Both the position numbers and the translations under genes were made by a program. DNA of 64,000 nt. Source: Acidobacteriaceae bacterium. GTDB lineage: Bacteria; Acidobacteriota; Terriglobia; Terriglobales; Acidobacteriaceae. The number at the start of each line of letters is the position of its first letter. The stretch's first letter is position 1. Shown piece by piece: positions 16,806-20,950 of the stretch. The DNA lies in assembly GCA_003134435.1 (NCBI GenBank), contig PLBE01000221.1:1-64000 (forward strand). Direction: 5' to 3'. Below the pieces are notes generated by a model. The model saw nothing but the letters and a program-made list of their open reading frames with translations. It was not told where the DNA came from and ran no database searches.

Positions 16806-17522
16806 TTATGCGTCCACTGCAGGAAATGCCGGCAGCGGCTCAATTCTATGCAAGCCACATTCCGTCTTGTTCGAGCCCGACCAGCGGCCCGCTCTGGGAT
16901 CTTCCCCGGGCAGGACCGCACGCGTGCAATGGATGCAGCCTATGCTGGGATAGTTTTTATCGTGCAGCGAGTTGTAGGGTACGTCGTGTTCGAGGAGATA
17001 CTGCCAAACTTGTTGCGAATTCCAGTCGGCAACCGGATTCAGCTTCACCAAACCGGACTTTTCGTCCATCTCAATTTTGCGGGCGCTCTGCCGGGCGGCG
17101 GTCTGATCGCGGCGAATGCTGGTGATCCATGCGCTCAGTCCACTAAGTTTGCGGCGGAGCGGCTCAACCTTGCGCAGGTTGCAGCATTGATCGGGATTGC
17201 GGGCCCAGAGTGCGGCACCGTGAACTCGCTCCTGCTCTTCCGGCGGCAGCAGCGAAAAGACGCGCTCAACTCTGATTTCATATTTCTGCTCGATCCTGTC
17301 CATCAAGCTGTAGGTCTCCGGAAACAGAAATTCGGTGTCCAGCGTAAATACGCGAAACTTCTTGCGCAACCGTGACGCCATATCAATCAGCACCATGCCT
17401 TCTGCGCCGAAGGCCGACGCAATAGCCACGCTGTCTCCAAAGGTTTCAAAGGCCCAGGCCAGCACCTGTTGCGGACTCCAACTCTCGGCAATCAAACGAA
17501 TTTCCGCGATCTGGTCGTTCAT
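16806..17522 (-). CDS. cysH: Adenylyl-sulfate (APS) reductase, assimilatory, 4Fe-4S type
   Basis: A 238-residue cytoplasmic reductase that makes sulfite from APS using thioredoxin. The PP-loop-type nucleotide fold opens with SVAIASAFGAEGMVLIDM. The cysteine pairs CC (NPDQCCNLRK, about 115) and CIHC (about 203) mark the [4Fe-4S] form that prefers APS over PAPS. The catalytic ECGLH box is at the C-terminus. ATG 17522 has AAGGAG eight bases upstream and overlaps the cobA stop as ATGA; a GTG nine bases earlier lies inside the Shine-Dalgarno and is rejected. It is the last gene of the four-gene sulfur operon. Confidence 0.93.
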   Translation of the reverse strand: MNDQIAEIRLIAESWSPQQVLAWAFETFGDSVAIASAFGAEGMVLIDMASRLRKKFRVFTLDTEFLFPETYSLMDRIEQKYEIRVERVFSLLPPEEQERVHGAALWARNPDQCCNLRKVEPLRRKLSGLSAWITSIRRDQTAARQSARKIEMDEKSGLVKLNPVADWNSQQVWQYLLEHDVPYNSLHDKNYPSIGCIHCTRAVLPGEDPRAGRWSGSNKTECGLHRIEPLPAFPAVDA

Positions 17523-18388
17523 GCAATCCACTCCTTAGCCGCACGGGGCGGCCATGGCGAGCGGGGAAACATCTTGCCGAGACGCGCGGGCAAGCCTTTG
17601 TCTCTGAACTCGATTTCTGGGATCGCCAATCCATCGACCACCGCGGCCGGATTGGCCAGGCGCACCACCTCGCCTACGACCAGCAAGGTTGGAGACGCGA
17701 CTCGCGGCATGCGGGGAAGATCCCACACCGTGGCTCGCTCGACTTTCTGATACTGAGTGGTGGCGCGAGAAACCACAACGCACGGAGTCTCAGGACTAAC
17801 TCCCGCTGACGTCAGCCGCAGCGCAACATCCGAATAATCCGGCCCGGGCATATAGATGACGAGCGTCGCTCCACTGGCAGCCAACTTGCTCCAGTCAGCG
17901 CCACATTTCTCGGAAGCGCATGGTTCACCAGTTCGCGATCTGGACGCTCGATGGGCGGTAAGGAAAACAACCGCGTCTGACGCGCGACGATGTGTGAGCG
18001 GAATCTGGGCGGCGGCGGCCGCACCGAGGGCCGATGTCACTCCCGGCACGATCTCGAAAGGAATGCGGTTTCGGCGCAGGAACTCGATCTCTTCCCCGGC
18101 GCGCCCGAAAATCAGCGGATCACCGCCTTTGAGACGAACAACGCCCAGACCCGACTTCGCCAGCGCCACCATCAGACCGTTAATTTCGCCTTGAAGAATT
18201 CTCTTTTTCCCGCAGCGCTTGCCCACGTTGAGAATCTGCGCCGTCGGCGAAATTAGCTTCAGAACCTCCAACGAGACCAGGTCGTCGTGCAAAACCGCTT
18301 CTGCGCCCTGCAGCAGACGCAGCGCCTTCACGGTCAGCAACTCGGAATCACCCGGACCTGCGCCCACCAGATAAACTTTTCCCCTCAT
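17519..18388 (-). CDS. cobA: Uroporphyrinogen-III C-methyltransferase (SUMT)
   Basis: A 289-residue SAM-dependent enzyme that methylates uroporphyrinogen III twice to precorrin-2, the siroheme precursor needed by the sulfite reductase of the same operon. Motifs: VYLVGAGPGDSELLTVKA at the N-terminus, VVRLKGGDPLIFGRAGEE (about 85-102), VPGVTSALGAAAAAQIPLTHR (about 115-135) and VYMPG-like IYMPG near 175. The frame is open further upstream, but ATG 18388 overlaps the preceding stop as ATGA and starts right at the first strand of the fold. About 40 residues extend past the usual C-terminal end. Confidence 0.93.
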   Translation of the reverse strand: MRGKVYLVGAGPGDSELLTVKALRLLQGAEAVLHDDLVSLEVLKLISPTAQILNVGKRCGKKRILQGEINGLMVALAKSGLGVVRLKGGDPLIFGRAGEEIEFLRRNRIPFEIVPGVTSALGAAAAAQIPLTHRRASDAVVFLTAHRASRSRTGEPCASEKCGADWSKLAASGATLVIYMPGPDYSDVALRLTSAGVSPETPCVVVSRATTQYQKVERATVWDLPRMPRVASPTLLVVGEVVRLANPAAVVDGLAIPEIEFRDKGLPARLGKMFPRSPWPPRAAKEWIA

Positions 18389-19023
18389 GGTCGCCCACCT
18401 TGCGGGTCTATCGCCGCCTTCGCTCTTAATGCCGGGTTTCCAGCTAAATGCGCTTCGACCGCTTCCCTGCTCGCCAGGGACTGCAGCAAATTCCACTTGG
18501 TCTCGAGATCAAGAGCGCTCGCCAGAATCAGCTTTCTGGTCTCGCCAAGTTCCTCCACCCAAGCCGCGTATCCCGCGCTGAACTGTCGTTCCAGTTGGTG
18601 CCGAAGTCTCTGCGCCAGCGATGGACTCCGGCCACCGGTCGAAATCGCTACCTGCAAGCCTCCGCGCCGCACCACTGCGGGATAAAAGAAATCGCAATAC
18701 TCCGGCACATCGACCACGTTGCACAGCACTCCGCGCCGCTGCGCTTCACGATAGATCTGTTCGTTCAAGCGGTTGCAAGACGTTGCCACGACCGCAAGGA
18801 ACTTGCTATCGAGGTCAGATGCCGAAAAGGCTCGCAGTTCCAGATCGATCTTCCCCAGGTCGGACCATTCCCGAACCTGTGGGCTGGCCTCGAGCGCAAC
18901 CACGCGGAGGTGCGCGCCGGTATCCATGAGGCCTCCGATCTTGGGCTCGCCGACCTTCCCCGCACCGACAACCAGGCACTGCCTTCCAGTCAAACGTATG
19001 AACATTGGGAACAGGCTAGTCAC
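18385..19023 (-). CDS. Precorrin-2 dehydrogenase / sirohydrochlorin ferrochelatase (CysG N-terminal type)
   Basis: A 212-residue Met8p/CysG-N-like protein that oxidises precorrin-2 and can insert iron to form siroheme. The NAD-binding loop reads VVGAGKVGEPKI in place of the usual GGGxVAxRK; the later NVVDVPEYCDFFYPAVVRRGGLQVAISTGGRSP block is canonical. I chose GTG 19023: AGGAGG lies five bases upstream, and the codon overlaps the sulfite reductase stop by eight bases. The frame is open to 19047. Its downstream neighbour cobA overlaps by four bases, so the two-protein pathway replaces the fused CysG of enterobacteria. Confidence 0.9.
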   Translation of the reverse strand: MTSLFPMFIRLTGRQCLVVGAGKVGEPKIGGLMDTGAHLRVVALEASPQVREWSDLGKIDLELRAFSASDLDSKFLAVVATSCNRLNEQIYREAQRRGVLCNVVDVPEYCDFFYPAVVRRGGLQVAISTGGRSPSLAQRLRHQLERQFSAGYAAWVEELGETRKLILASALDLETKWNLLQSLASREAVEAHLAGNPALRAKAAIDPQGGRP

Positions 19024-20737
19024 CTTCGCCTCCTGCGGCTCGGGCAATCGCTCCTGCCGTCACCGGCGGCGTATCGCGAGCAACCGCGTCCACCGAACCG
19101 CCCGCTAGAAATTCACGCAACTCTGCGTCCGTGTGCCGGCCAAAAAACTGACGCAGGTTTTCGCCTGGCGAACGCGACGCGAGATAGCGCCTAAGCAATC
19201 TCTCGATTGCATCCGGAACCTCGGTCGCCAGGCAGCGATAGCCGACGGGCCGCGCGGTCGCCTGATGCAAACCGAGCGCCCCGCCGACGCAGAAGTAATA
19301 GGCATCTACAAGATGGCCATCGACTTTCATCTTCTTGCCATCGATGCCAATATCCGCAATCCAGTGCTGGCCACAACTATTCGGGCATCCCGTAACGTGC
19401 AGTTTGAGATGCTGATCGAAGCCCGGCAGGCGTTCTTCGAGTTCTTCGACCAGCCAGCGGGAAAAGCTCTTTGTCTCCGTGATCGCCAGTTTGCAAAATT
19501 CCGTACCGCTGCACGCGACCGTCCCGCGCCAAAATGACGATCCGCCCACGCGCAATCCAACCGCATCCAATTCCCGTGCCAGCGCCTCGGCATGGAACTC
19601 GGGAACATTCACGATGAGCAGGTTCTGCATGTTGCTGGTACGCAGTTCGCCAGCGGCAAAGCGATCCGCCAGATCGGCTGCGACACGCATTTGTTCAGCG
19701 GTAATTCGACCGCGGAGCACCGCCGCGCCCACATAGCGATAGCCCGCTTGCTTTTGCGGATGAATTCCCACGTGGTCACGATAGACATCTTCGGGCAACT
19801 CTTCCTCGACTGCGGCATCGAATCGGAATCCAATCCGAGTCTGGAGTTCATCGAGAAATCTCTCCGCCGTCCATCCATGTCGCAGAAAGAGAAATTTCAG
19901 CCGGGCTCGTTCGCGATGTTCGCGCAATACATCGGAGTCGCGAAACAGTTCGGCAATCCCGAGGACGGCGGGCAAAACCTGGTGCCAGCGGACAAATGCG
20001 TTCAATCGCGCCCCCAGGTAGGGCTCGGTGGAGAGGCCGCCCGCAACCCGCAACGAGAAACCCACCTCGGGCGTTCCGCGGCGCACACGGGTGGTCGCGG
20101 TCAACCCGACATCGTTGATTTCCGGATACGGGCACCACACGCGGCATCCCGTAATCGAGATCTTGAACTTGCGTGGAAGATTGTAGAAGTCGGCATGGCC
20201 GGACAACATGCGCGAAGCTTCGAGCGCCAAAGGCGAAGCGTTACAAATCTCGTCCGCATCCACGCCAGCGACTGGGCAGCCGGTAACATTGCGCGTCACA
20301 TCACCACAGGCGCTGGTGGTGTTCAATCCCACCCGCCTGAGCGCTTCGAGCAAATCCGGTAGCGCCTCGATCGTGACCCAATGCAACTGAATGTTCTGGC
20401 GAACCGTGATGTCGGCAATTCCGTGAGCGTAGCGTTGAGTAAGGTCGGCAATCGTGCGCAGTTGCTCGGAGCGCAAAAAGCCGTTGGGAATCCGAATTCT
20501 GACCATGAAGCAAGGCAGCGCCCGGCCTTCGCCATTCTGCCCTCCGGTGACGCCAGCACCGTCGCCCTGGGTGTAGACTCCCCACCAGCGGAAGTAGGTT
20601 CCTATCCACTCTGGCGGAATGGATGCGAATCCCTCACGGGCGAAACGCCGGATTTCTTCCAGCCCTTCCCACGGATTCTTGGAGCGTTTGAGACGCTCGA
20701 CTCTTTGCGCCTTGGTTTCCTTCCCTGGATCTGTCAT
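19016..20737 (-). CDS. Ferredoxin-dependent sulfite (or nitrite) reductase
   Basis: A 573-residue siroheme/4Fe-4S hemoprotein with the two-fold repeat of the family. The N-terminal half has RWWGVYTQGDG and ITVRQNIQLHW; TTSACGDVTRN follows; cluster ligands are the C-x5-C in VACSGTEFCKLA and the C-x3-C in VTGCPNSCGQHW. The Tyr and Cys of the first two motifs resemble those of sulfite-specific enzymes. Operon mates (siroheme synthesis, APS reductase) make sulfite the likely substrate, giving sulfide for cysteine. ATG 20737 with GGGGGA upstream is preferred to GTG 20770, because the latter lies inside the terminator stem. Expression is probably controlled by the leader attenuator upstream. Confidence 0.9.
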   Translation of the reverse strand: MTDPGKETKAQRVERLKRSKNPWEGLEEIRRFAREGFASIPPEWIGTYFRWWGVYTQGDGAGVTGGQNGEGRALPCFMVRIRIPNGFLRSEQLRTIADLTQRYAHGIADITVRQNIQLHWVTIEALPDLLEALRRVGLNTTSACGDVTRNVTGCPVAGVDADEICNASPLALEASRMLSGHADFYNLPRKFKISITGCRVWCPYPEINDVGLTATTRVRRGTPEVGFSLRVAGGLSTEPYLGARLNAFVRWHQVLPAVLGIAELFRDSDVLREHRERARLKFLFLRHGWTAERFLDELQTRIGFRFDAAVEEELPEDVYRDHVGIHPQKQAGYRYVGAAVLRGRITAEQMRVAADLADRFAAGELRTSNMQNLLIVNVPEFHAEALARELDAVGLRVGGSSFWRGTVACSGTEFCKLAITETKSFSRWLVEELEERLPGFDQHLKLHVTGCPNSCGQHWIADIGIDGKKMKVDGHLVDAYYFCVGGALGLHQATARPVGYRCLATEVPDAIERLLRRYLASRSPGENLRQFFGRHTDAELREFLAGGSVDAVARDTPPVTAGAIARAAGGEGD

Positions 20738-20753
20738 CGCCTGACTGTCCCCC

Positions 20754-20792
20754 AAAAATGAAAAGCCCACCGCCAGTGCTGCTGGCGGTGGG
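20754..20792 (-). terminator. Intrinsic terminator in the leader of the sulfur-assimilation operon
   Basis: On the minus strand the arms CCCACCGCCAG and CTGGCGGTGGG (20792-20782 and 20776-20766) form a perfect 11-bp stem with a five-base loop, followed by CTTTTCATTTTT. It ends 17 bases before the sulfite reductase ATG. Its 5' arm can pair instead with CTGGCGCGGGG at 20848-20838 inside the leader ORF (CTGGCG paired to CGCCAG, two mismatches, GGG to CCC), which would block termination. Confidence 0.85.
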
Positions 20793-20817
20793 TTATAAGT
20801 GCCGGTATTTTAATAAC

Positions 20818-20910
20818 TTACTTCAGGTCGGCAACCTCCCCGCGCCAGCGCACAGCGATGCGACAACAACAACACGCGCACATGCACATAGCGGAGAAAT
20901 TGAGTTTCAT
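20818..20910 (-). CDS. Cysteine-rich leader peptide (attenuator ORF) of the sulfur operon
   Basis: A 30-codon ORF, ATG 20910 to TAA 20818. Residues 8-16 read MCMCACCCC: six cysteine codons in eight positions (9, 11, 13-16), four of them consecutive TGT. The tail is RIAVRWRGEV and seven more residues. Other possible starts are the ATGs at 20889 and 20883. If the promoter at 20921-20950 is right, the transcript begins about three bases before the first ATG, so translation would be leaderless. The ORF ends 26 bases before the terminator stem. Role inferred: a ribosome stalled for lack of Cys-tRNA would leave the antiterminator strand free and let the operon be read; fast translation would let the terminator form. 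Confidence 0.8.
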   Translation of the reverse strand: MKLNFSAMCMCACCCCRIAVRWRGEVADLK

Positions 20911-20920
20911 CCTATTCGGG

Positions 20921-20950
20921 ATTCTAGGTTCCCTGGCTGGCGATGGTCAA
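20921..20950 (-). promoter_or_regulatory. Sigma-70-type promoter of the sulfur operon
   Basis: Minus-strand TTGACC (20950-20945), an 18-base spacer and TAGAAT (20926-20921), each five of six to consensus. The expected start is near 20913, three bases before the leader-peptide ATG at 20910. Confidence 0.6.

Follow-up and report, generated by a model that had tools for sequence, protein, structure and literature searches.

A putative ribosome-mediated cysteine attenuator ahead of the sulfite reductase operon in an acidobacterium, with similar leaders elsewhere in the phylum

The leader preceding the sulfite reductase-siroheme-cysH operon of an Acidobacteriaceae bacterium very probably controls this operon by ribosome-mediated transcription attenuation, with charged tRNA-Cys as the signal (estimated probability about 0.88, from sequence comparison and fold modelling). 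It was found in a window of 64,000 nt, the whole stretch of DNA analysed here, where it sits between galT and the gene of a NirA/SirA-family sulfite reductase (19016..20737, minus strand, ATG at 20737) whose best solved relative is M. tuberculosis NirA (1ZJ8). The downstream operon genes on the same strand (16806..19047) encode the N-terminal part of siroheme synthase (cysG), uroporphyrinogen-III methyltransferase (cobA) and CysH, and the genes behind the leader are those of sulfate assimilation. The genome assembly containing the window (G000) comprises 5.75 Mb in 261 contigs; among named records, MAGs of Candidatus Sulfotelmatobacter / Terriglobales come closest. A match to CysD (TIGR02039) is lacking in this assembly, although one exists in 90 out of 151 genomes from its class.

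All elements of the leader lie on the minus strand. A sigma-70-like promoter (TTGACC-18-TAGAAT, 20921..20950), conserved as TTGAC/TAnnnT in most homologues, is made up of a -35 element TTGACC (20950-20945), an 18-nt spacer and a -10 element TAGAAT (20926-20921). It is followed by a leader ORF of 30 codons, MKLNFSAMCMCACCCCRIAVRWRGEVADLK, which with its stop codon extends over 20818..20910 (ATG at 20910), and whose peptide contains MCMCACCCC. The Cys run, kept in relatives, is centred on four consecutive Cys codons, TGTTGTTGTTGT (20863..20874), recognised from sequence and alignment, and two further TGC codons lie in the presumptive stall zone (20886-20884 and 20880-20878). The codons immediately upstream of the run constitute segment 1, CTCAATTTCTCCGC (20891..20904), which, according to an arm-swap test, pairs with segment 2 to form a protector (1:2). 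Segment 2, CTGGCGCGGGGAGGTTGCCGA (20828..20848), lies in the terminal part of the leader ORF and is at the same time the 5' arm of an antiterminator, as judged from pairing, swap and fold tests. Its partner there, segment 3, CCCACCGCCAG (20782..20792), is common to the antiterminator (2:3) and the terminator (3:4), in which it pairs with segment 4, CTGGCGGTGGG (20766..20776), the 3' arm of a perfect 11-bp stem (20792-20766) followed by a U-rich tract (20755..20765).

The promoter-like pair, the ORF and the stem with its U-rich tail had been noticed in the initial annotation and are all present, and the tail does end 17 bases before the sulfite reductase gene (tail to 20755, ATG at 20737); the gap between leader stop and stem is 25 bases, and not 26 as then counted. 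The antiterminator had been described as six pairs, two mismatches and three pairs. These exist, but they are not the whole of it: a helix III joins TGCCG (20833-20829) to CGGCA (20800..20804), its 3' arm, and is replaced by alternative pairs in relatives. The segment-1 partner at 20904-20891 had also been overlooked. A search of the window against Rfam gave no match above gathering score to any riboswitch or attenuator family.

A scan with the reductase protein yielded 80 homologous loci which, as best matches to the query, over-represent close relatives. A Cys-rich sORF followed by a terminator was present at 55 of the 59 acidobacterial sulfite-reductase loci with readable upstream DNA, and the same device was found at none of 17 such loci labelled Rokubacteria, Methylomirabilota or Actinomycetota. 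A bulge-free terminator finder overlooked some leaders and was replaced by another. One of the four acidobacterial exceptions (L068) has a CCCCC leader and a terminator farther upstream of the gene. The leader peptide, encoded by about 30 codons, follows the consensus M-x9-C(C/M)C(T/A)CCCC-AC-VC-SGAGRLLT approximately, the cluster containing 3-8 Cys with variable residues around them, and the distance from stop to terminator is about 28 nt, mostly 25–30 nt. Changes within Cys codons are mainly TGT/TGC exchanges, with 114 synonymous and 69 nonsynonymous changes versus 184 and 262 at other codons, in pairwise counts that are phylogenetically non-independent. The Cys run and the pairing of the terminator are both retained in close as well as distant relatives, a comparison suggested by the initial annotation. 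Within the 5.75-Mb genome itself there are 58 TGYx4 sites, and among about 50 inspected only that of the window falls within a short ORF with a terminator behind it; a covariance model detected no second copy of the leader in this genome. The lone TGYx4 case among the sites inspected, the lack of a second match to the model and the conservation at 55 of 59 loci place the arrangement in the window beyond chance.

The promoter occupies an almost fixed position. In most of 48 leaders a TTGAC-17/18-TAnnnT element ends 7–11 nt 5' of the start codon, with a mean promoter score of 11.2 as against 7.2 in random windows, and an SD-like sequence is absent. Judging from the promoter, transcription should start at the leader start codon or at most ~4 nt before it, giving a predicted 5' UTR of 0–4 nt. 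Since the conserved promoter puts the start within a few bases of the ATG, the leader is presumably translated as a near-leaderless message, in agreement with the earlier suggestion of a leaderless sensor.

For the terminator (3:4), 95 % of the cells of the alignment are paired, five pairs have changed on both sides, and the covariation score was reached in 0 of 500 shuffles. The antiterminator (2:3) consists of CTGGCG/CGCCAG, GGG/CCC and, by the leader stop, helix III; its cells are paired in 85.6 % of cases, compared to 32–54 % in slid versions. On the fixed alignment its covariation is modest, 101 of 500 shuffles matching the count of pairs changed on both sides. Such counting underestimates the covariation, since the register of pairing differs in divergent leaders, and 2:3 was assessed by arm swapping instead. 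The helix III arms pair more stably with their own partners than with swapped ones (-11.1 vs -10.1 kcal/mol; 0/5000), and the same holds for 1:2 (-25.1 vs -21.4 kcal/mol; 0/5000). Inspection of the alignments by eye shows helix III as TGCCG/CGGCA, TGCTG/CAGCA or CGGA/TCCG (L047, L054) and, in further relatives, as TCCTAA/TTAGGA (L070), CCTAAA/TTTAGG (L072) or GGATA/TATCC (L056).

From this anatomy we infer ribosome stalling, termination and a response to cysteine as follows. When Cys-tRNA is short, the ribosome would stall in the Cys run and cover segment 1 just upstream, so that segment 2 is available to the emerging segment 3; formation of 2:3 would block the terminator and allow transcription of the operon. 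With ample Cys-tRNA, the ribosome would reach the stop codon and cover segment 2, or depart so that 1:2 forms. With segment 2 occupied in either way, segment 3 would pair with segment 4 and transcription would end.

Ribosome positions were modelled on transcripts cut at the terminator loop, with a 28-nt ribosome footprint held unpaired. In 47 of 48 leaders the antiterminator exceeded 0.5 for a stall at one Cys codon at least, while its mean was 0.07 for a ribosome on the stop codon and 0.36 without ribosome. The two-state folding asked for at the outset thus predicts an antiterminator on Cys stalling that is all but absent once the stop codon is reached. When the run was repeated under slightly altered definitions, values exceeded 0.5 in 55 of 56 leaders, versus 31 % of controls in which the intervening segment was shuffled. 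It speaks against the scheme that in some leaders, including that of the window, 2:3 outweighs 1:2 already in the absence of a ribosome. Equilibrium folding of the full leader with footprints was uninformative, as the terminator wins in nearly every relative regardless of the ribosome. Since the full terminator is favoured at equilibrium, the switch must be kinetic, which is the usual mode of decision for attenuators. The leader combines a short ORF in which codons for the operon's end product are enriched, an intrinsic terminator between this ORF and the first structural gene and, by computation, a terminator-excluding antiterminator favoured by stalling at the sensor codons. Conservation, competing structures that co-vary or re-pair, and ribosome-position modelling all lend support to the ribosome-mediated attenuation initially proposed.

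The leader of the window carries one extra C (20862) directly after the TGT run that is absent from all aligned relatives, including the nearest one found (L133, 84 % identical). This base, private to the window assembly, converts the conserved tail ACVCxGAGRLxT into RIAVRWRGEVADLK and makes TAA (20820) the leader stop in place of TGA (20825). For a ribosome on the stop codon, the modelled antiterminator of the window leader amounts to 0.01 at the family stop and 0.49 at its own stop, an incomplete masking of segment 2 that is due to the extra base. The latter may be an assembly error, or it may be a recent, tolerated indel. Another leader, MCCCACCCCACALAQGGC (L025), is also frame-shifted with respect to the family tail.

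Other ways of reading the leader have to be weighed against transcription attenuation. For the polycysteine leaderless sORFs of mycobacteria, an action on translation has been reported (PMC9031893, PMC13236596), and the downstream gene family is the same, which would suit a mechanism where a ribosome in the Cys run gates the reductase ribosome-binding site and not termination. This is nevertheless quite improbable, given that a G+C-rich hairpin with a U-tract is conserved and covarying and ends upstream of the sulfite reductase ribosome-binding site, at a distance from the gene that differs widely between relatives and that a site-sequestering switch would not tolerate. An ordinary constitutive terminator preceded by a chance, untranslated ORF could be invoked on the grounds that terminator-like sites are no more numerous in single-sequence scans than in shuffles; as ORF, Cys run, spacing, promoter and pairings are all kept across the phylum, this explanation is extremely improbable.

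The poly-Cys nascent peptide might itself sense metal or redox state instead of charged tRNA-Cys, as has been proposed for the Cys-rich uORFs of copper genes. Metal binding by a CC-rich peptide is conceivable, and a peroxiredoxin is among the genes behind similar leaders. Still, most genes behind such leaders belong to cysteine or sulfur assimilation, the residues flanking the Cys codons vary as does the number of Cys, and these codons are placed with respect to segments 1 and 2 in a way consistent with codon stalling, so that peptide sensing appears very improbable.

Cysteine leaders as such are not without precedent. They have been predicted, without terminators, in Mycobacterium, P. acnes and B. 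longum (Seliverstov 2005, PMC1262725), observed in mycobacteria by ribosome profiling (Shell 2015, PMC4633059) and, in M. smegmatis, reported to attenuate translation in response to cysteine (Canestrari 2020, as summarised in PMC9031893). The mycobacterial cys leaders share with the present one a Cys-run sORF before sulfur-assimilation genes, with a reductase of the same NirA/SirA family behind it. They are leaderless, the window leader being predicted as near-leaderless from promoter position; they are reported to act on translation and have no conserved terminator, while here there is a covarying intrinsic terminator together with an antiterminator and a protector segment. In Rhodobacterales, uORFC-8-2 is a two-Cys uORF with an intrinsic terminator before cysS, predicted like the present leader to be a ribosome-mediated attenuator (Brewer 2021, PMC8632094). 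It is confined to a tRNA synthetase gene in one alphaproteobacterial order, whereas the acidobacterial leaders have up to 8 Cys in 9 codons and precede biosynthetic and other sulfur operons in another phylum. The enterobacterial trp and his attenuators likewise have a leader peptide rich in end-product codons, mutually exclusive 1:2, 2:3 and 3:4 pairings and an intrinsic terminator. Here, however, another amino acid would be sensed by a near-leaderless sensor, segment 1 precedes the sensor codons, and the last stretch of the leader ORF, beside the stop codon, serves as segment 2. In the light of the computational tests, the device of the window is very probably a classical ribosome-mediated cysteine attenuator working like those of trp and his. 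Attenuators of Acidobacteria have been described as almost wholly unassigned (PMC2965389), and no prior description of the device in Acidobacteriota was found in the open-licence literature.

Similar leaders precede other genes in the phylum. A covariance model (R1) had a match at E<=0.01 per genome in 30 of 396 genomes of the phylum, a few of which are expected by chance as this cut-off was applied to each genome separately. R1 leaders lie before an operon of rhodanese, family-2A encapsulin and a cysteine desulfurase-like gene (the latter recognised by eye), and before 1-Cys peroxiredoxin, cysM/K, cysD, cysH, a NirA-like reductase and a YedE/TsuA-like transporter. In gene-based surveys run independently of R1, Cys leaders were found at 13 of 30 peroxiredoxin loci, 3 of 30 cysD loci, 3 of 30 cysM/K loci (one weak) and 8 of 20 encapsulin loci; the opposite strand of the 90 upstream stretches surveyed for peroxiredoxin, cysD and cysM/K gave a single match. 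When modelled, 10 of the 13 peroxiredoxin leaders exceeded 0.5 and 12 of 13 differed by more than 0.3 between stall and stop (controls, 35 %), which supports the switch in this set; the figures for encapsulin leaders were 4 of 8 versus 41 % of controls, and the remaining sets gave mixed results.

The peroxiredoxin leaders (L240-L249, L251, L254, L262) contain up to 6 consecutive Cys codons, followed by a terminator. Cys leaders with terminator before rhodanese / family-2A encapsulin shell operons occur in other Acidobacteriota (L175, L176, L182, L187, L155, L157, L195, L204-L206); in L182 the cysteine desulfurase-like gene comes next. No Cys leader was found upstream of the encapsulin gene of the window's own genome (G000:C67:3865-4752). 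Cys leaders before cysM/K, cysD, cysH, the NirA-like reductase and the YedE/TsuA-like transporter were seen at L184, L185, L186, L168, L158, L160, L178, L179, L210 and L222, cysM/K being followed in L184 by sulfur-carrier-like and JAMM-like genes. Less clear cases are two Cys-containing leaders that, together with a terminator, stand ahead of an OMPP1/FadL-type outer membrane protein and an HbpS-like protein (L188, L177). Similar terminators also follow aromatic leaders, namely WYWW before the DAHP synthase gene (L159) and CWW before trpE (L166), which suggests that genes for aromatic amino acids are attenuated in Acidobacteriota as well.

On balance, it seems reasonably likely that Acidobacteriota possess a phylum-wide cysteine-attenuator regulon, mostly near-leaderless and evolved independently of the mycobacterial leaders, which controls sulfite reductase, 1-Cys peroxiredoxin, the family-2A (sulfur-storage) encapsulin-rhodanese-cysteine desulfurase operon, cysteine synthase, cysD, cysH and a thiosulfate-transporter-like gene. 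In a dominant soil phylum, one attenuator gains a complete, testable anatomy and signal, and cysteine attenuation would here proceed via classical termination instead of the mycobacterial route. The sequence signature draws other sulfur genes, including those of an encapsulin nanocompartment, into the predicted cysteine regulon. If this holds true, one charged tRNA would report to sulfur uptake, storage and redox defence.
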